Positions 25,960-33,655 of a stretch of DNA of 64,000 nt are shown here, piece after piece. The notes beneath the pieces were generated by a model. It had not been told where the DNA came from, ran no database searches, and worked only from the letters and a program-made list of their open reading frames with translations. The stretch comes from Dyella thiooxydans. GTDB lineage: Bacteria > Pseudomonadota > Gammaproteobacteria > Xanthomonadales > Rhodanobacteraceae. The stretch lies in assembly GCF_001641285.1 (NCBI RefSeq), contig NZ_CP014841.1:1798001-1862000 (forward strand), read 5' to 3'. The position numbers were made by a program, and so were the translations under genes. The first letter of the stretch is position 1. Each line of letters opens with the position of its first letter.

Positions 25960-26520
25960 TCAGGCACCGAAGCGCGCCAGCAGTCGGGCGGTCTCGAATA
26001 CCGGCAATCCCATCACGCCGGAGTAGCTGCCATCCAAGTGCTCGACCAGGGTCGCACCGCGTCCCTGTATGGCATAGGCGCCCGCCTTGCCGAAGGGCTC
26101 GGCGGTGGCGACGTAGGTGGCGATGGTGACCTCGTCCAGCTCGGCAAAGCGCACGCGTGACACGCACAGCTCGCTGTCCTCGTGCCGCTCGCCAACCAGC
26201 CACACCGCCGAGATCACCTCGTGCGTGCGTCCGGACAGCCGGCGCAACATGGCCGCGGCATCGGCGGCATCGGCCGGCTTGCCGAACACCTCGTCGTCCA
26301 GCACCACCTCGGTGTCGCTGCCGAGCACGACCGCCCCCGGATCGCCGACGCGAGCCAGCCCTGCCTGCGCCTTGTCGCGCGCGACCCGGCTGACGTAATG
26401 GCGGGGCGACTCTTCCGGCGAGCGCTGTTCGGGTATGTCCACGTGGACGACTTCGAAGGCGACGCCGATCTGCTCGAGCAGCTGGCGACGACGCGGCGAT
26501 TGCGAGGCGAGATAGAGCAT
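25960..26520 (-). CDS. maf: Maf-family nucleoside triphosphate pyrophosphatase
   Basis: House-cleaning enzyme that hydrolyses non-canonical or dTTP/UTP-type nucleotides. The 186-residue product has [16 protein letters not shown] at residues 3-18, [18 protein letters not shown], and [28 protein letters not shown]. The start at 26520 ([11 protein letters not shown]) is canonical. It is the last gene of the rsfS-rlmH-GNAT-maf run. Subtype (YhdE versus YceF) is inferred from the Q-G-RGA motif and leans to YhdE. Confidence 0.92.
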
Positions 26521-26545
26521 AGGTGGTCCGCATCGCCCGGAGGGC

Positions 26546-26992
26546 TCAGAGGGCAAGACCGTACCCGCAGAACTGCGTGTCGCGCACCCAGCCCAGCGAT
26601 TCGTACAGCGCCTGCGCCGGCGCATTGTCCAGCGCGGTGGACAGACTCAGACTGGCTGCTCCGCGCGCCCGCGCCTGCGCCGCGGCCTCCTGCAACAGCG
26701 CCCGTCCGGCACCGCCGCGGCGCGCCGACGGAGCCACGAACAGATCGTTGAGCAGCCAGGTACGCACCGTGCGCACGGAGGAGAACAGGGGATAGAGCTG
26801 GGTGAAGCCGATCGCCTCGCCGTCCAGCTCGGCCAGCAGTACCAGCGACTCCTGCCGGGCCAGACGCTCGGCGAGGAAGTCGCGGGCCCGTGCCAGATCG
26901 GCCGGCTGGCGGTAGAACTGGCGGTAGGCGTCGAACAGCGGCGCCAGTCGATCGAGATCGTGGATGTCGGCGATACGTACAGAGAGAGTCAT
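26546..26992 (-). CDS. GNAT-family N-acetyltransferase
   Basis: A 148-residue acetyltransferase fold. The acetyl-CoA-binding segment is [24 protein letters not shown] (about residues 79-103), followed by [24 protein letters not shown]. The substrate is not predictable. It lies between rlmH and maf on the same strand (54 bp after rlmH, 25 bp before maf), probably co-transcribed. Confidence 0.85.
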
Positions 26993-27046
26993 CGGCGGGA
27001 GGTCGTCGAGGAAACCGGCAGCATAGCCGCCCGGCGCCCGGCCGGC

Positions 27047-27517
27047 CTAGGCACGATGGTAGGGATGTCCGGCCACGATGGTGGTAGCCCGGTACAACTG
27101 TTCGGCCAGCACCAGCCGCACCAGCATGTGCGGCAGCGTCAACGGCCCCAGCGACCAGCGCTGGTCGGCCCGCGCCAGCACCTCGGGCGCGTGGCCGTCG
27201 GGTCCGCCGATCAGGAAGGCCAGGTCGCGACCGGCCATGCGCCATTGCTGAAGCTGGGCGGCGAGATCCTCGCTGGACCAGGTCCTGCCTCGGCCGTCGA
27301 GCGCGACCACGTGGGTGTCCCGACCGATCGCGGCGAGGATCGCCGCACCCTCGTCGAGGATCGCCTTCGCGTCGTCGCGGCCCTTGCCACGAGCACCGGG
27401 CTTGAGCTCCACCAACTCAAGCGGCAGCTCGTGCGAGAGTCGCTTGCGGTATTCGGCGAAGCCCTCGGCCACCCAGCCGGGCATGCGCTCACCGACGGCG
27501 ATCAGCCGTGCGCGCAT
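27047..27517 (-). CDS. rlmH: 23S rRNA (pseudouridine-1915 N3) methyltransferase
   Basis: SPOUT-class methyltransferase acting on helix 69 of 23S rRNA. The 156-residue product has VALDGRGRTWSSEDLAAQL, the SAM-knot motif FLIGGPDGH, and the C-terminal LPHMLVRLVLAEQLYRATTIVAGHPYHRA. The length is normal. It follows rsfS after 12 bp, the usual pairing. Confidence 0.97.
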   Translation of the reverse strand: MRARLIAVGERMPGWVAEGFAEYRKRLSHELPLELVELKPGARGKGRDDAKAILDEGAAILAAIGRDTHVVALDGRGRTWSSEDLAAQLQQWRMAGRDLAFLIGGPDGHAPEVLARADQRWSLGPLTLPHMLVRLVLAEQLYRATTIVAGHPYHRA

Positions 27518-27529
27518 CGATGCGGGGAA

Positions 27530-27919
27530 TCAGCCGACGCTGGCGGCGCCGGCATCGGGCTCACGATCGCCCACCGTCCACAGCCGCTCGAGCCCGTAGA
27601 ACTCGCGGATGCGCGGCAGCATCACGTGGACGATCACGTCGCCGAGATCCACCAGCACCCACTCGGCCTCCTGCTCGCCTTCCACGCCCAGCGGCATCAC
27701 ACCGGCCTTCTTGGCGAACTTCACCACCTCGTCGGCGATCGACTTCACGTGCCGGGTCGAAGTGCCCGAGGCGACCACCAGCAGATCGGCGATCGAGGTG
27801 CGGCCGCGGACGTCGATCTCGCGGATGTCCTTGGCCTTCAGGTCCTCCAGCGCCTGCAGCACTTGCTGGCGCAGCCTGGAGGTGGAAACCGGCGTGTCGT
27901 TGCGGGCGGAATTAGCCAA
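27530..27919 (-). CDS. rsfS: Ribosome silencing factor RsfS
   Basis: Binds L14 and blocks subunit joining when nutrients are low. The core is unmistakable: LEDLKAKDIREIDVRGRTSIADLLVVASGTSTRHVKSIADEVV, then GVEGEQEAEWVLVDLGDVIVHVM. The start is uncertain. An ATG exists at 27965-27967, but it overlaps a perfect TATAAT (27966-27971), which as a -10 would put it outside the transcript. I prefer the TTG at 27917-27919 (129 residues), nearer the family start. The ATG would add 16 residues. Confidence 0.88.
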   Translation of the reverse strand: MANSARNDTPVSTSRLRQQVLQALEDLKAKDIREIDVRGRTSIADLLVVASGTSTRHVKSIADEVVKFAKKAGVMPLGVEGEQEAEWVLVDLGDVIVHVMLPRIREFYGLERLWTVGDREPDAGAASVG

Positions 27920-27965
27920 GAGGAGAGGCCTCGGTACGGAGAGCAGCGCGGGATCGCGCGCCGCC

Positions 27966-27971
27966 ATTATA
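27966..27971 (-). promoter_or_regulatory. TATAAT -10 element upstream of rsfS
   Basis: A perfect -10 hexamer on the minus strand, with no obvious -35 at the right distance. It sits at the boundary between rsfS and the accessory genes and would give rsfS-rlmH a promoter of their own, independent of leuS-nadD. Confidence 0.45.
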
Positions 27972-28061
27972 GCGCCCCGTACCTGCCGGGATCGGCCTCG
28001 GCCCGGAATCGTCGGCCCCGGTGCGGTGCGGCTCGCCGGCACCCGCCCGGGGCCGGACGCG

Positions 28062-28385
28062 TCACATGCCGCCGCCGCTCATCGCGTCGTCGTGCTTCAT
28101 CGAATCGTGCTTCATCGAATCGCCCTTCATGGCGTCGTGCTTCATCGAGTCGTGCTTCATCGAATCGCCCTTCATGGCGTCGTGCTTCATCGAATCGTGC
28201 TTCATCGAGTCGCCCTTCATGGCGTCGTGCTTCATCGAGTCGTGCTTCATCGAGTCACCCTTCATGGCGTCGTGCTTCATGCCGGTGTCCTGGGCCATGC
28301 TGTCCTGCGCGAGCGCAGCGCTGGCAAAGCCACCGGCGAGGCCGGCGAAAGCGAGACCGAGGGCGAGCTTGGCGAGAATTTTCAT
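28062..28385 (-). CDS. Secreted methionine-rich MxKDx-type pentapeptide-repeat protein
   Basis: A 107-residue small exported protein. Residues 1-26 are a signal peptide ending in ALA. The mature part (81 residues) holds 16 methionines and no cysteine. From Met36 to Met96 there is a methionine exactly every fifth residue, in four perfect copies of a 15-residue unit built from KHDAM, KGDSM and KHDSM. This resembles the family named pentapeptide MXKDX repeat protein, of unknown function. It follows the anti-sigma gene by 73 bp and has its own sigma-F-type promoter. Likely a periplasmic oxidant sink; metal binding by Met/His/Asp is the alternative. CAGGAG precedes the start. Confidence 0.85.
   Translation of the reverse strand: MKILAKLALGLAFAGLAGGFASAALAQDSMAQDTGMKHDAMKGDSMKHDSMKHDAMKGDSMKHDSMKHDAMKGDSMKHDSMKHDAMKGDSMKHDSMKHDDAMSGGGM
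28098..28277 (-). repeat. Four 45-bp in-frame tandem repeats inside the Met-rich gene
   Basis: Four head-to-tail 45-bp units encode residues 37-96. The copies give identical peptides and differ only at synonymous positions (GAC/GAT for Asp), which suggests recent expansion or continuing homogenisation under selection on the protein sequence. Confidence 0.93.
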
Positions 28386-28436
28386 GCGGCGTTACTCCTG
28401 GAAAAGGGACGTGCGACCGTTGCCGCACACCTGCCT

Positions 28437-28462
28437 TTCGCCCGGAGCCGGCCGGTGGTTAC
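28437..28462 (-). promoter_or_regulatory. SigF-type ECF promoter of the Met-rich peptide gene
   Basis: On the minus strand GTAACC (28457-28462) and CGAA (28437-28440) are separated by exactly 16 bp. The -35 overlaps the stop codon of the anti-sigma gene. Transcription would begin near 28430, about 45 nt before the Met-rich start codon. Confidence 0.8.
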
Positions 28463-29130
28463 ATGCCGCCGACCGGGCGACGCGGACGCAGCAGGCGTCC
28501 CCCGCACAACGCATTCACCCCGATCACCAGACCCACGGCCAGGGCGTGCACGGCCAGGTCGGTCGCCGCCGCATCGAACTCGTGGCAGATCTCCAGCAGG
28601 CTGGCCGAACCGGCGGCACTGGCCACGCCGATCATCGCCGCGGTCAGCACCGGGCGCAGTGGATACGCGCGGCGCAGCCACACCACCAGCACCGCCGACA
28701 AGGGCAGCGAGAAGGCCAGGATGAACTCCAGGCAGCCGCGCGCACCGGCCATCGTGGCGACCACCGTATCCGGCGCCACCCAGCTGCGCAGGCAGCCCAC
28801 ACCACTGGCGCCGATCCACAGCAACGCCGGCGGCAGTACCAGCCAGGCACGCGATACCGGTCGTCCTGGTACGCCCAGCGAGAACGCCACCCAGCCGGCC
28901 ACCAGCGCGGTGAGCACGGCACCGACGCCGGCCCAGGCCAGATCGGGCGCACCACGCCAGCGGGTCAGCATCGGCGTGAGCCCGTAATGCCAGACCAGCA
29001 GTGCGGCCATCGCGGTCAGCAACAGCGTCCAGCCCAGCGCCCGCCACAGCGGTGGGCGCAGGCGCCGGACCGGCGCCAGATCGGCACCCAGCGCGTGGAT
29101 CAGCGACTGGTGGTTGGGCGCATCGGCCAC
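28459..29130 (-). CDS. nrsF: NrsF-family membrane anti-sigma factor
   Basis: A 223-residue protein with about six transmembrane helices and a short cytoplasmic N-terminus (VADAPNHQSLIHALGADLAPVRRLRPP). It matches the NrsF/DUF1109 anti-sigma factors that hold SigF-type ECF sigma factors at the membrane. Two cysteines lie in or near helices (GVGCLRSW and ICHEF); Cys pairs of this kind are implicated in NrsF sensing. The GTG start at 29128-29130 follows the sigma stop by one base, so the pair is translationally coupled. Confidence 0.87.
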   Translation of the reverse strand: MADAPNHQSLIHALGADLAPVRRLRPPLWRALGWTLLLTAMAALLVWHYGLTPMLTRWRGAPDLAWAGVGAVLTALVAGWVAFSLGVPGRPVSRAWLVLPPALLWIGASGVGCLRSWVAPDTVVATMAGARGCLEFILAFSLPLSAVLVVWLRRAYPLRPVLTAAMIGVASAAGSASLLEICHEFDAAATDLAVHALAVGLVIGVNALCGGRLLRPRRPVGGM

Positions 29131-29131
29131 G

Positions 29132-29791
29132 TCAGTGTTCTCCGTGGAGTCGGTTGCGCAGCGCCTTGAGAGCACGGTGCAGGTTTACCTTCAGGGCGCC
29201 GGTGGATCGCCCGGTCAAGGCCGACGCCTCGGCCAGCGTATGTTCGTGAAGCCCCAACTGCTCGACCGCCTCGCGCTGGCCCGGCGGCAGCGTAGCGATG
29301 GCCGCGCGCAACGCCGCCGCCCGCTCGGACTGCTCGGCGGCGTCGTTCGCCTGCCGCTCGTCGGCATGCTGTTCGACGGCCAGCGGCTCGTGCAGCTCGC
29401 GGCGACCGCGCCGACCGCTCTGGCGCAGACTGTCGATGGCCCGGCGACTGGCGATGGCCGAGAGCCAGGCATGGTACGAACGGGCCGGGTCGTAGGTGTG
29501 CCGGACACGATGGATGGTGATCAGGGTCTCCTGCACCACGTCGTCGAGCAGGTCGGCAGGCACACCCTGGCGTCGGGCCACTGCGCGGACCAGCCCGACC
29601 GATTCCCCCAGCACCCGCTCGTAGGCCACGCGGTCGCCCGTCTGCGCGGCCGCCATCCAGGCGGCGCGGCGCAGGTCGGCCTGCTGGTTGTCGCTGAGCG
29701 AAGAATCGTCCACGGCGCGGACGGCGTCCTGATACGAGGCAAGGCCGCCATCTACACCGATCACGAGGGCATTGGTCAAGATGGCGGACAT
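29132..29791 (-). CDS. sigF: ECF RNA polymerase sigma factor, SigF type
   Basis: A 219-residue ECF sigma factor. Region 2 is DLLDDVVQETLITIHRVRHTYDPARSYHAWLSAIASRRAIDSLR (about 80-125). Region 4 is LPPGQREAVEQLGLHEHTLAEASALTGRSTGALKVNLHRALKALR (about 166-212). The N-terminal start at 29791 (MSAILTNALVIG) is uncertain; a start nearer the ADLRRAAWMAAA segment is possible. Co-encoded with NrsF and preceded by its own GTAACC-N16-CGAA site, indicating autoregulation. The name is by analogy with SigF/NrsF pairs. Confidence 0.87.
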   Translation of the reverse strand: MSAILTNALVIGVDGGLASYQDAVRAVDDSSLSDNQQADLRRAAWMAAAQTGDRVAYERVLGESVGLVRAVARRQGVPADLLDDVVQETLITIHRVRHTYDPARSYHAWLSAIASRRAIDSLRQSGRRGRRELHEPLAVEQHADERQANDAAEQSERAAALRAAIATLPPGQREAVEQLGLHEHTLAEASALTGRSTGALKVNLHRALKALRNRLHGEH

Positions 29792-29822
29792 GCACGGGCT
29801 CTTCGGGCGGATCTTCGTGCGA

Positions 29823-29848
29823 TTCGCTGCATCGCCCCGCGCGGTTAC
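29823..29848 (-). promoter_or_regulatory. SigF-type ECF promoter of the sigma-nrsF operon
   Basis: On the minus strand GTAACC (29843-29848) and CGAA (29823-29826) are 16 bp apart, about 32 bp upstream of the sigma ATG. An exact motif match, divergent from the msrB promoter 16 bp away. Confidence 0.82.
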
Positions 29849-29864
29849 CGCGTACAGCACCGGC

Positions 29865-29890
29865 GTAACCTGCCCTCCGGCCCGGACGAA
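29865..29890 (+). promoter_or_regulatory. SigF-type ECF promoter of msrB
   Basis: On the plus strand GTAACC (29865-29870) and CGAA (29887-29890) are 16 bp apart. Transcription would start near 29897, about 30 nt before the proposed msrB ATG. Confidence 0.82.
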
Positions 29891-29927
29891 TGGCCGGAGT
29901 ACCCGTCCTGTGCCGGAGAAGCGCCGC

Positions 29928-30545
29928 ATGTCCTCAAACCAGGAAATCGTGATGATCGAGCGCCGCCGCCTGCTGCGGATGGCTCTGGCCGGTGGTGCGC
30001 TGGCGACGATCGCCGGGCTGGCCGCGGTCCCCCGCCTGTTCGCCCGCGAGCGCGGCCCTGCTGCCGGCACGAGCCCCGGCAGCGCCACCGAGGTGCGCCT
30101 GCAGTGCTTTGCCGACGACGGCCGCGCACTGGGGGCGTGCACCGTGCGGCGGGTCGTCCTGAGCGATGCCGAATGGCGCCGCCGGCTGTCACCGATGGCC
30201 TACTACGTGCTGCGCCAGGACGGTACCGAGCGCGCTTTCAGCGGCGACCACGAAAAGCCTGCGCGGCCCGGCCTGTTCCGCTGCGTCGGCTGCGCCACTG
30301 CGCTGTTCGATGCCGCCACCGAATTCGACTCTGGCACCGGCTGGCCCAGCTTCTGGCAGCCGATCGCCGCGTCCAACGTGATCGAGAAGCGCGATACCAG
30401 CTTCGGCATGGTCCGCACCGAAGTGCGCTGCGCCCGCTGCGACGGCCACCTCGGCCACGTCTTCGACGACGGCCCGCGGCCGACCGGGCTGCGCTACTGC
30501 ATGAATTCGGTGGCGCTGAAGTTCGTGCCGCATGCGGCAGCCTGA
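29928..30545 (+). CDS. msrB: Exported peptide-methionine (R)-S-oxide reductase MsrB
   Basis: Reduces R-methionine sulfoxide in proteins. The 205-residue product has an N-terminal Tat-like signal or anchor (ERRRLLRMALAGGALATIAGLAAVPRLFA, about 11-39), so it should work in the periplasm. The MsrB domain spans about 75-200: structural zinc cysteines 119, 122, 168 and 171, the substrate block FDSGTGWPSFW, and catalytic Cys191 in RYCMNS. The start at 29928 has GGAGAA upstream; an ATG at 29952 is equally possible and is also followed by the signal. Divergent from the sigma operon and under the same promoter type. Confidence 0.92.
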   Translation: MSSNQEIVMIERRRLLRMALAGGALATIAGLAAVPRLFARERGPAAGTSPGSATEVRLQCFADDGRALGACTVRRVVLSDAEWRRRLSPMAYYVLRQDGTERAFSGDHEKPARPGLFRCVGCATALFDAATEFDSGTGWPSFWQPIAASNVIEKRDTSFGMVRTEVRCARCDGHLGHVFDDGPRPTGLRYCMNSVALKFVPHAAA

Positions 30546-30706
30546 TTCTCCCGCATCGAGCCCGACGCCCTGACTGGACATGAGCCAAGGTCGTCCCGCT
30601 GCCCCTGCCGAATGTGTGGAGGGCAGAGATAGGGTGGTGTCATCCCCCATGTACCAGGCGTTTCTCCGCTGCCGCGATCACTTCATTCCCAGGGAACTGG
30701 CGAAAG

Positions 30707-30738
30707 AAAAAAGGCGGGCCTTGCGGCCCGCCTTTTTT
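30707..30738. terminator. Bidirectional terminator between msrB and the TonB-dependent receptor
   Basis: A GGCGGGCC/GGCCCGCC stem with a TTGC loop is flanked by an A run and a T run. It suits the receptor gene on the minus strand and possibly msrB on the plus strand. Confidence 0.88.
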
Positions 30739-30760
30739 GCTTTGCACTTGATGGTCGGGA

Positions 30761-33655
30761 TCAGAACTTCTGCGTGTAGCCCACGTAGAAGTAACGGTCC
30801 AGATCCAGGTTCGGATCAACCGACGACGCGCTGTTGTAGCCCAGCTGGTTCGCCAGATAGTTCACCGAAGGCTGCTTGTTGAACACGTTGTTGATACCCA
30901 CGCGGAACTGACCGTTCCACGGCGCATTCCAGCGGAACTGGACGTCGTTGAACGCCGTGGCACCGTGGCGGTTCGCACCCATGTAACCCCAGCTCGGGCT
31001 GGTGTAGTTGGGCTGGTTGCACTCGTTGGCGCTGTAGCAGACGTCCCGGATCGAGCTGTAGTAGCGGACGGTCCAGGTGGCACCGAAGTCACCCTTCGAC
31101 CAGTCCAGCGACACGTTGGCGCGGTTGCGGTAGATCGGGTACTGACCCACCGACTCCTGCACCACGGCACCCGGCGAGCTCTGCTGCTCGTACTTGGACA
31201 CGTAGCTGCCGCCCAATTGCGCGACGAGGCGACCGAACGAATACTCAGGCAGGCGGTAGCGGATCGAGTAGTCGTAGCCTTCCGTCTCGAGGTAACCCAG
31301 GTTCGCGTTGCCACGATTGAGGTTGACCACCTGGTGGGTGTCCGGGTCACGCGAGAACTGGCCACAGTACTGCTGCGAACCCTGCGAGTAGCACTGGTCA
31401 AGCACGTAGCCGGCGCTGATCGCGGAGATCAGGTTGCTGACTCGGATGCTGTACCAGTCCAGCGACATGTCCAGGCCGGGCACGTAATCCGGGCTGTACA
31501 CCAGGCCCAGGGTACGGGTGATGGCCGTCTCCGGCTTCAGGTTGGCATTGCCAGCGCCTGCATTGAATGCGGTCAGGCCTTGCGCACCGTTCACGCTGGT
31601 GATCGTGCTCTTGTCCTGCTTGAGCTGACGGTAGCCGGCGGGCACGCCATCGGCCGTGCAGCGTGCTGCCACCTGGGCATTGGTCGCTGCAGCACCATAG
31701 ACCGTATCGCACGGGTCGAGGAACGTGTCGAAGCTCTGCGAACCACCGCCGAAGGTATCGTCCAGCGTCGGGGCGCGGAAGCCCTCGGCGTAGTTGCCGC
31801 GCACCAGCAGGTCGTCGATCGGCCTCCAGCTGAATCCGTACTTGTTGTTGGTGGTGCTGCCGAAGTTGCTGTAGTGCGAGTAGCGACTGGCCACGTCGAC
31901 GCTCAACGACTTGGCACCCGGCAGATCCTTCAGGATCGGCGCGTTGAACTCGACATAACCTTCGTTCACGCGGTAACGGCCGGCCGTGGAGTTGGCAGCC
32001 AGATCGGTGGTGTTGCCCGACTGGCTGGCGAGATCCGGGTACAGGTAACCCTTCTCCTGACGGCTCTCGATGCCAGCGGCGAAGCTGAACTCGCCGGCCG
32101 GCAGATTGAACAGACCGCCGGTGATGTTGGCGGTGGCCGAACGCTCGCTGGAGCCGTAGCGGGTGGTGGTAAGCGCGTTGATGAACTTGAGCGCGTCCGC
32201 GGTCGAGGCAGAGGGACCACCGGCGATGTCGAACGGCGTGCACTGACCTTGGTTGATGCTGGTGCCCAGCGGCAGCGGGTTGGTCGGAGTCCCGCACTGC
32301 ACGACGCCATCGGCATTGAGGAACGACGGCCCCAACGCCAGCGCCATCGCTTGGCGGTTAAGGTTGCCCGAACCCGCCAGAGTGCCTTCGTTACGGTTGT
32401 AGGCGATGCCGGCATCCCAGTTCCACTCGTGCTCGCCGACGTTGAAATAACCCTCAAGACCGGCATCCAGATGCATCGTGTTGGTGTTGTTGCGAGTCTG
32501 GCGCGGCAACTCGACGGTGCGACGGTAGACCTGGAAGTTGGTACCCGGATACGGGTTGTAGTAGCTCTGGCCCGACAGCAGCACCGGATCGGTGAACGCG
32601 CCGGAGCTGAACGGATAACCGGCGATCTGCGAAAACGCGTGGCGCTGCGAGTACATCGCGGTGCCCTTGAACGTCACGTTGTCGGTGAGGTTGTAGGTGC
32701 CGTGCGTGAAGATCGAATTCAGCGTGGTCGGCGTGCGCTCGAGCATCTGGCTGGAGGCATTGAACGAGTCCGCGACGCGGCCATCCCAGTCGTGGTAGCT
32801 GGCCGGGTCATTGGACGGCGAGGCACCCACGCCATTGGCATGGTTCAGCACGATGTCGGTACCCGAGTTCGGATCGTACAACTCGCCCCACGGCCCCAGG
32901 AACAGGCGGTTCTCATGGTACGGACCGTCGTTGCCGTTGGTCAGCGCACGCTTGCTCGCCCACACCGGACCCTGCTTGTTGTAGGTGTAGTTGAAGACGA
33001 TCGAGCCCTTCTCGTTGTTCTGGCCCAGTGTCAGGCTGTAGTTGGTGGTCTTGCCGTCACCCTTCTGGTTCACGCCATAGGTGCCGTCGAACTGGGCGCC
33101 CTGGAAGTGATCGTTGAGGATGAAGTTGATCACACCGGCGATCGCGTCGGAGCCGTAGACCGACGAGGCGCCGTCCTTCAGCACTTCGACGCGCTGGATC
33201 AGCGCGGCAGGAATGTTCGACACATCGGTGTAGCCGGCAACGCTGGTCGACCAGCGCTTACCGTTCACCAGCACCAGTACGCGCTGCGCACCGAGGTTGC
33301 GCATGTCAACGTAGGAGCCGCCCTGCTCGGAGTTGGAAGCCAGCACCGAGGCGCTGGTGAAGTCCGGGGTGCCGACCATCGACATGCGGCTGACGATGTC
33401 ACCGACGGTGGTCAGGCCGGTCTTCTTGATGTCGTCCTGGGTCATCACGAATACCGGCTGCTGGGTCTCGATGTCGACACTCCGGATGCGCGAGCCGGTG
33501 ACCGTGATGGTCTGAAGCTGCTGGGCCTTGGAAGCATCTGCCTTCTGATCGGTGGACGAGGCGTCCTGGGCAAACGCCGAGGTGGCGACCGCGCTCACGC
33601 CAATGGCCAGCGCAAACTTCACGGCGAGCGATAGCTTGTTGGATCCAATCTTCAT
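30761..33655 (-). CDS. TonB-dependent outer-membrane receptor, substrate unknown
   Basis: A 964-residue outer-membrane transporter. The signal peptide ends AFA at residue 29. A TonB-box-like ITVTGSRI lies around residues 50-57. The plug domain follows (QQPVFVMTQDDIKKTGLTTVGDIVSRM, then VLKDGASSVYGSDAIAGVINFIL), then a long 22-strand barrel ending in the C-terminal aromatic YTQKF. The sequence resembles the large Xanthomonas/Caulobacter-type receptors used for peptides or carbohydrates rather than classical siderophore receptors. No substrate enzyme is adjacent. The ATG at 33655 has CAGGAG upstream. Confidence 0.9.
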   Translation of the reverse strand: MKIGSNKLSLAVKFALAIGVSAVATSAFAQDASSTDQKADASKAQQLQTITVTGSRIRSVDIETQQPVFVMTQDDIKKTGLTTVGDIVSRMSMVGTPDFTSASVLASNSEQGGSYVDMRNLGAQRVLVLVNGKRWSTSVAGYTDVSNIPAALIQRVEVLKDGASSVYGSDAIAGVINFILNDHFQGAQFDGTYGVNQKGDGKTTNYSLTLGQNNEKGSIVFNYTYNKQGPVWASKRALTNGNDGPYHENRLFLGPWGELYDPNSGTDIVLNHANGVGASPSNDPASYHDWDGRVADSFNASSQMLERTPTTLNSIFTHGTYNLTDNVTFKGTAMYSQRHAFSQIAGYPFSSGAFTDPVLLSGQSYYNPYPGTNFQVYRRTVELPRQTRNNTNTMHLDAGLEGYFNVGEHEWNWDAGIAYNRNEGTLAGSGNLNRQAMALALGPSFLNADGVVQCGTPTNPLPLGTSINQGQCTPFDIAGGPSASTADALKFINALTTTRYGSSERSATANITGGLFNLPAGEFSFAAGIESRQEKGYLYPDLASQSGNTTDLAANSTAGRYRVNEGYVEFNAPILKDLPGAKSLSVDVASRYSHYSNFGSTTNNKYGFSWRPIDDLLVRGNYAEGFRAPTLDDTFGGGSQSFDTFLDPCDTVYGAAATNAQVAARCTADGVPAGYRQLKQDKSTITSVNGAQGLTAFNAGAGNANLKPETAITRTLGLVYSPDYVPGLDMSLDWYSIRVSNLISAISAGYVLDQCYSQGSQQYCGQFSRDPDTHQVVNLNRGNANLGYLETEGYDYSIRYRLPEYSFGRLVAQLGGSYVSKYEQQSSPGAVVQESVGQYPIYRNRANVSLDWSKGDFGATWTVRYYSSIRDVCYSANECNQPNYTSPSWGYMGANRHGATAFNDVQFRWNAPWNGQFRVGINNVFNKQPSVNYLANQLGYNSASSVDPNLDLDRYFYVGYTQKF

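Follow-up and report, generated by a model that had tools for sequence, protein, structure and literature searches.

What does an extracytoplasmic function (ECF) sigma factor control when it is encoded beside a membrane anti-sigma factor, an exported methionine-rich peptide and an exported methionine sulfoxide reductase (Msr)? This four-gene module occupies 2.5 kb (positions 28062 to 30545) of a 64,000-nucleotide stretch of the Dyella thiooxydans genome (NZ_CP014841.1, positions 1,798,001 to 1,862,000), the whole of which is called the window here. Peptide, anti-sigma factor and sigma factor lie on the minus strand and msrB diverges from them on the plus strand. We regard it as probable (roughly 0.72) that the locus is the control centre of a regulon for methionine-sulfoxide repair in the cell envelope, with the peptide as a probable expendable methionine sink. 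New here are the exact SigF-type promoter found exactly three times in the window, and its further sites at distant genes that would belong to the same regulon.

The SigF promoter of Caulobacter is GTAACC-N16-CGAA (PMC3511200), and a near-identical sequence has been described for ECF16 sigma factors (PMC8315932, PMC3420878). All three exact matches in the window fall within the module, and the reversed pattern, which served as control, has none. One match precedes the sigma-nrsF operon (29823 to 29848, minus strand, 31 nt before the start), one lies divergently before msrB (29865 to 29890, plus strand, 37 nt before the start), and one precedes the peptide gene (28437 to 28462, minus strand, 51 nt before the ATG), overlapping the end of nrsF. 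Given these three motifs, autoregulation of the sigma operon is probable, and so is direct control of the peptide gene and msrB, each through its own promoter, in agreement with the preliminary description of this DNA, which had taken the genes for one SigF-type unit. The arrangement recurs, beyond chance, among 79 NrsF loci of named records, 69 of them from Dyella, Rhodanobacter, Frateuria or Fulvimonas, in a scan that cannot show the full taxonomic range because both of its peptide patterns come from the family's own NrsF: a divergent MsrB lies within 5 kb of NrsF in 70, the divergent exact motif is present in 61, and the exact motif stands before the sigma gene in 48.

Family models support each of the four genes. 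The sigma factor (29132 to 29791, minus strand, 219 aa) matches Sigma70_r2 and r4_2 in Pfam above cut-off and TIGR02937 at 74.2 bits; no NCBIfam sigma equivalog exceeded its cut-off among the 25 matches listed. A single base separates its stop codon from the GTG start of the NrsF-type membrane anti-sigma factor (28459 to 29130, minus strand; PF06532, 67.8 bits, cut-off 26.8). This is the sole NrsF of the whole genome, and its Cys113, Cys133 and Cys182 are kept in 30, 30 and 29 of 30 sequences, its own included; the conserved Cys pair is C131/C181 in Caulobacter and C129/C179 in OsrA, to which the window NrsF is likened by position only. MsrB, the R-specific reductase (29928 to 30545, plus strand, 205 aa), scores 180 bits on TIGR00357 (cut-off 113) and 163 bits on SelR of Pfam, and its alignment to the solved MsrB 2k8d spans RYCMNS and both CxxC pairs; we take RxCxN to be the catalytic motif and the CxxC pairs to be zinc motifs. 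Its leader, ERRRLLRM, is Tat-like, and a leader of the form RRx[FLI][LIMF] was found in all 28 MsrB loci read (RRRFL in 23 of them) out of 30 fetched, L129 and L151 being omitted for orientation or a contig end. The peptide (28062 to 28385, minus strand, 107 aa) scores 94.3 bits on TIGR02953 (penta_MxKDx, cut-off 41); its presumed mature part of 81 residues contains 16 Met, 9 His and no Cys, and its DNA is an array of 45-bp units in 4.3 copies. What had been proposed for the module at the outset, namely a sigma factor, NrsF one base on, a secreted 81-residue MxKDx-type peptide with 16 methionines and a divergent MsrB with an export signal and complete cysteines, thus holds in every part. A search of positions 26000 to 33000 for an RNA element gave no Rfam match above the gathering score.

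In the genome as a whole the N16 motif has eight exact matches, compared with two for the control. Five lie outside the module: before a cytochrome b561 gene and an MsrP-like molybdoenzyme gene, before an msrA with a lipobox, before moeA-moaA (moaA named by eye), before cutA-dsbD-tlpA, and inside the his operon in antisense orientation, the last probably by chance. The MsrA protein contains GCFWG and aligns to solved MsrA chains, and a pattern search found the lipobox in 27 of 30 MsrA leaders, those of the other three (L110, L124 and L125, the last two imperfect) being recognised by eye. The prediction that MsrB, limited to the R epimer, should have an S-specific partner elsewhere is thereby satisfied, by an MsrA lipoprotein behind an exact SigF-type promoter. 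The MsrP-like protein is a relative of MsrP, judging from its sequence, and not a member, because its 106 bits on the MsrP model fall below the cut-off of 207; its best solved match is the bacterial sulfite oxidase 1xdq, which we take to be E. coli YedY. Its membrane partner is a PF01292 cytochrome b561, and the pair falls outside MsrP/MsrQ (YedYZ). The absence of YedYZ claimed earlier is accordingly correct for the locus and needs amending for the predicted regulon, as this MsrP-like molybdoenzyme with its cytochrome b561 has a promoter of the same kind elsewhere in the genome. Two moeA-like genes lie about 4 kb apart (G000:C1:1127589-1128791 and 1132853-1134055, G000 being D. thiooxydans itself), and the exact motif is upstream of the second only.

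These distant promoters are coupled to nrsF across the family. Of 117 genomes sampled, 59 contain NrsF at E <= 0.001 (weakly in G006 and G064). The exact motif is upstream of the msrA ortholog in 53 of 56 NrsF-positive and none of 16 NrsF-negative genomes (28/30 vs 0/13 in one batch, 25/26 vs 0/3 in another), the sample being every match of 236 bits or more (72), with weaker ones excluded, among them several from NrsF-negative genomes at 53 to 55% identity; three NrsF-positive genomes (G006, G064 and G068) have no match of that strength. The three NrsF-positive orthologs without the exact motif show close variants of it: GTAACT in L116 and L125, GTAACG in L390. For the MsrP-like operon the motif is present in 8 of 12 NrsF-positive and 0 of 11 NrsF-negative genomes, counted over 23 orthologs of at least 59% identity after exclusion of matches of at most 41% and one 21-residue fragment. 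Because the genomes are related, Fisher values for the two contrasts (2e-13 for msrA, without kinship correction, and p = 0.001 for the MsrP-like operon) overstate independence. Within a single genus, g24, the motif precedes msrA in 3/3 NrsF-positive vs 0/2 NrsF-negative genomes, and the MsrP-like operon in 3/3 vs 0/3. Tat-MsrB homologs of nine NrsF-negative genomes lack the motif throughout (0/7 and 0/2). The promoter boxes stay while the spacers between them diverge, as at moeA, where the motif is found in all four genomes of the window's own genus, its own included, and in 5 of 15 orthologs overall (at least 54% identity, all NrsF-positive). At dsbD it is found in three of the four genus genomes and in 7 of the 30 best orthologs, again all from NrsF-positive genomes. 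Of the 15 motif regions fetched from the three congeners beyond the module, 11 are followed by a reference regulon gene; over all 60 fetched regions, which were selected for holding the motif and so show what follows it and not its frequency at orthologs, the figure is 29, four of them weak (a dsbD at a distance of 946 nt and three additional MsrA genes with an identity of about 40%).

Several related loci extend these observations. In genus g13 the exact motif precedes further genes (L072, L090, L080, L094, L069, L088, L063, L070, L079 and L095) of peroxiredoxin-like, catalase-family, DoxX, DUF1223 and AraC-type, one of each scanned, a wider set than in the window's clade. Three g13 genomes (L073, L084 and L091) also have it before an additional MsrA gene that shares about 40% identity with the lipoprotein MsrA, and in three (L074, L082 and L089, of which L074 was scanned) it stands, as a conserved exact motif, before the gene of a small protein without a Pfam match. 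The nearest relatives over NrsF are Dyella lutea (98%) and D. ginsengisoli (97%). A contig labelled Candidatus Eremiobacteraeota (L338, CAJCJD010000205.1) has a Rhodanobacteraceae-like module of sigma factor, NrsF, DipZ-like protein and MsrB, with 53% NrsF and 68% MsrB identity, and is either misbinned or a case of horizontal transfer. Related sigma/NrsF pairs without MsrB within 5 kb occur in L347 and L348 (labelled Lichenicoccus and uncultured Alphaproteobacteria).

How a periplasmic MsrB might be supplied with electrons is suggested by a gene of about 590 codons that lies between sigma and msrB in three relatives read. Its product has a hydrophobic half reading LSPCILPVLPF followed by a thioredoxin half, and we name it DipZ-like on that assumption; the family scan covered a 488-aa piece of one such protein, which has Redoxin and Thioredoxin_10 domains. 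By tblastn of this piece, 67 of the 79 named loci have a DipZ-like gene no more than 5 kb away and on the same strand as msrB, and its WTYSCINC was seen upstream of msrB in 16 of 30 loci in a crude longest-ORF reading. In the window's clade the gene is not beside msrB. With a query without the N-terminal part, a full DipZ match was absent from G000, G003 and G045 and a partial one lay elsewhere in G029; a full DipZ elsewhere in the D. thiooxydans genome was likewise discarded as a candidate, since that query gave a thioredoxin-domain match only. In that genome the best match encodes an exported thioredoxin-like protein, and its promoter departs from the motif by one mismatch (GTAACC-N16-CGAT in G000, G045 and G029; CGTA in G003). 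The exported thioredoxin-like protein at L380:869-1369 resembles the DipZ-like thioredoxin half, and the one-mismatch motif is present in all four genus genomes, the window's own included; it was absent from the NrsF-positive G077 and two NrsF-negative genomes. The exported thioredoxin-like gene and dsbD-tlpA together may stand in for DipZ, a suggestion from a post-hoc observation in a genome where one-mismatch sites are common.

The peptide is more unevenly distributed than the repair genes. TIGR02953 exceeds its cut-off in 14 of the 117 genomes, all 14 NrsF-positive, and the exact promoter lies within 500 nt upstream of 12 of these peptides (misses in G013 and G038; at 223 nt in G019). In four genomes of genus g18 the peptide gene is separated from nrsF, either by 1.2 Mb or by lying on a different contig, yet all four retain its exact promoter, some 95 nt before the start of the match. 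Where only sub-cut-off matches exist (10 genomes), the promoter is present in 4 of 6 NrsF-positive and 0 of 4 NrsF-negative genomes. In the named loci a Met-rich ORF follows nrsF in at least 23 of 79, with the exact promoter in 16; this count is a lower bound, as the scan missed the ORF at L011 (the same locus as L324) and some genomes carry the peptide elsewhere. In relatives the four-gene neighbourhood is kept in most loci as far as MsrB with NrsF is concerned and, by this lower bound, only in part for the peptide. A selection of 26 of the peptides, whose mature ends were assigned by a pattern that truncated some (G018 for one), has between 6 and 18 Met, 1 to 10 His and 0 to 9 HxxM/MxxH spacings per peptide, with no Cys, Trp or Tyr.

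The computation establishes what the genes are, that export signals are present, and that the promoter is conserved and coupled to nrsF; beyond this we infer regulation, oxidant induction, oxidation of the peptide and its re-reduction by MsrA and MsrB along the following lines. NrsF would hold the sigma factor at the inner membrane and release it once the anti-sigma factor is changed, perhaps through its conserved cysteines, by an envelope oxidant (reactive chlorine or some other strong one). The free sigma factor would then transcribe from GTAACC-N16-CGAA its own operon, the peptide, the Tat-exported MsrB for the R epimer and the lipoprotein MsrA for the S epimer. Further targets would be the MsrP-like molybdoenzyme with its cytochrome b561, the molybdenum cofactor (Moco) genes moeA-moaA, and a membrane thiol-electron route, namely cutA-dsbD-tlpA in D. 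thiooxydans and the DipZ-like gene beside msrB in most relatives. As for the peptide, it would probably be an expendable methionine sink, re-reduced by the enzymes of the regulon, and we read it as an optional sacrificial member. That these parts close into a two-epimer envelope methionine redox cycle under one sigma factor is a more tentative proposal, to which we give a little less than an even chance. In it the MxKDx peptide would take up oxidant, Tat-MsrB would reduce its R sulfoxides and lipoprotein MsrA its S sulfoxides, with electrons from an inducible DipZ-like carrier or, in the window's clade, from DsbD/TlpA and the stand-alone exported thioredoxin; the molybdoenzyme, drawing on quinols via a hydrogenase-type cytochrome b561 instead of YedZ, could serve as backup. 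A single promoter-defined gene list thereby addresses both S-epimer repair and the electron source of a periplasmic MsrB. It suggests one regulon that swaps parts, DipZ-like for DsbD/TlpA, while its logic is kept, and since Dyella, Rhodanobacter and Frateuria include members with and without the peptide beside sigma, the value of the peptide is separable from that of repair.

Several observations weigh against an envelope repair regulon built around a sink. The exact motif is missing at sigma in 31 of the 79 named loci. Spacers of 15 to 17 give 16 matches in the D. thiooxydans genome vs 10 for the control (downstream genes were read for the eight with N16), and a one-mismatch scan intended to widen the regulon was abandoned as background-dominated, with 150 matches vs 120; the one such site followed was that before the thioredoxin-like gene already in view. 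Across genomes the motif mean is weakly above control in NrsF-positive genomes (7.41 vs 6.22) and stands at 3.19 vs 4.00 in NrsF-negative ones, so slight an excess that genome-level counts were rejected as proof and positions upstream of orthologs used instead. The moeA and dsbD sites, scored among NrsF-positive orthologs only, look like lineage additions. Caulobacter SigF did not respond to H2O2, tBOOH, paraquat or diamide in the account given in PMC3511200. Finally, because the peptide is found near nrsF in only 23 of 79 loci, it looks like an accessory, so that a sink would not be the core of the regulon, and it appears dispensable over evolution. One could go further and suppose that, as with EcfF/OsrA, H2O2 or singlet oxygen sets off plain envelope repair and that the peptide has a minor part, for example as a Met-rich reporter that, once oxidised, signals back to NrsF or the Msr enzymes. 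The frequency of MsrB (70/79) and the DipZ-like gene (67/79) relative to the peptide (at least 23/79) fits this, as does the control of three Msr and a DsbD-like pair by EcfF/OsrA (PMC3420878). We nevertheless consider it unlikely, though a serious contender: the g18 peptide genes lie elsewhere and yet keep their exact promoter in 4/4 genomes, and over-cut-off peptides occur in NrsF-positive genomes only, for which reasons the peptide looks like a selected member of the regulon where it is present.

A role in metal handling, the peptide buffering copper, silver or chromium through Met and His, NrsF sensing metal, and MsrA and MsrB mending metal-driven oxidation as a side task, would suit the 9 His and 8 HxxM/MxxH spacings of the window peptide, a pattern known from SilE-type silver-binding peptides. 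Caulobacter SigF responds to Cr and Cd (PMC3511200), and copper induces gigPABT beside rpoQ-rsqA in Cupriavidus, although control by RpoQ is unproven according to that paper (PMC10304878); both also count against an oxidant-centred regulon. However, the spacing is not conserved, being zero in 7 of the 26 peptides (which have 6 to 12 Met), and a metal role read from it was therefore discarded. Bufferins have a cysteine-bearing precursor and a DUF692 (MNIO) partner, and the absence of Cys from 26/26 peptides places them outside the bufferin/DUF2282 type; no DUF692 match was found among the four module proteins, which that search covered. No metal pump or oxidase was seen by eye in the ORFs after exact motifs of the D. 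thiooxydans genome, where CutA, at the head of the dsbD operon, is the only metal-named product, and the motif in g13 precedes catalase-family, peroxiredoxin and DoxX genes. What the peptides keep is Met and not His spacing; this speaks for a redox role rather than for a metal site of Met and His, while being compatible with Met-only metal binding, and we hold the metal explanation to be improbable. Much the same standing is given to the idea that the moeA-moaA, cutA-dsbD-tlpA and MsrP-like sites are chance matches and that the local module and msrA alone are real. About two exact matches are expected in the genome from the reversed control, the antisense his-operon match looks like one, the moeA and dsbD matches are confined to few genera, and 31 of the 60 fetched motif regions of relatives have no reference genes downstream. 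Against this stand the moeA boxes kept in 4/4 genus genomes over diverged spacers and those at dsbD in 3/4, the contrast at the MsrP-like operon (8/12 vs 0/11), and the three congeners, where one of these genes follows the motif in 11 of the 15 regions beyond the module.

An envelope methionine-sulfoxide repair regulon with a sacrificial peptide resembles several described systems. We found no publication on this combination in the open-licence literature (some searches covering the best 8 to 20 of more matches); PMC12817675, the only listed paper naming Dyella and Rhodanobacter, concerns root microbiota to judge by its title and the opening of its abstract. The Haemophilus influenzae RpoE2/HrsE-msrAB system is similar in that an ECF sigma factor controls periplasmic Msr and is HOCl-inducible, and differs in its cytoplasmic 67-aa anti-sigma factor and its MsrAB in one operon, the term 'methionine-rich' being absent from the text of that source (PMC7907618). 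Caulobacter SigF/NrsF shares the sigma/NrsF pair, GTAACC-N16-CGAA and a YedY-like target, whereas it is induced by Cr and Cd and its other targets are DUF2282/DUF692/DUF2063/DoxX operons (PMC3511200). The Dyella locus has two hallmarks of a SigF/NrsF system, a PF06532 anti-sigma factor directly after an ECF sigma factor and, at the level of sequence, the SigF motif before the sigma operon and its putative targets. EcfF/OsrA of Bradyrhizobium japonicum, which responds to H2O2 and singlet oxygen, is alike in its NrsF-type (DUF1109) anti-sigma factor, its promoter class, its three Msr (a periplasmic signal being predicted for one of them) and its DsbD-like and thioredoxin pair, but the passages in PMC3420878 describe it without a Met-rich peptide, an MsrP-like enzyme or Moco genes. 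Azospira suillum SigF/NrsF-YedYZ-MrpX combines sigma and anti-sigma factor, a Met-rich peptide and periplasmic Met cycling (PMC4623255, PMC8315932), and in two perchlorate islands there are, in addition, msrA and msrB genes with products predicted to be exported (PMC4623255). With MrpX the Dyella module shares an exported Met-rich peptide behind a sigma-type promoter; it differs in being without YedYZ and in that a common promoter links Msr genes at scattered chromosomal positions, and, unlike in Azospira, no perchlorate genes were recognised by eye among the ORFs at 26000 to 33000. The peptide's setting has a likeness in the BcrS/AbcS-bcrXQP system of Brucella melitensis, which is HOCl-inducible and comprises an ECF16 sigma factor, an NrsF-family anti-sigma factor, the MXKDX-repeat peptide BcrX, GTAAC...CGAA promoters and periplasmic Met-sulfoxide repair (PMC8315932). 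There MsrQP is encoded in the peptide operon, whereas Dyella has a thiol-type MsrB and a lipoprotein MsrA, with the MsrP-like enzyme and cytochrome b561 elsewhere. The preliminary view of an independent version of the MrpX cycle has to be softened in this light, as an MXKDX peptide in a SigF/NrsF-type system is already published in BcrX (PMC8315932) and the predicted regulon includes an MsrP-like enzyme. The kind of regulon is thus known from BcrX, MrpX and EcfF/OsrA, and what is new is the arrangement of its parts in the Dyella group.

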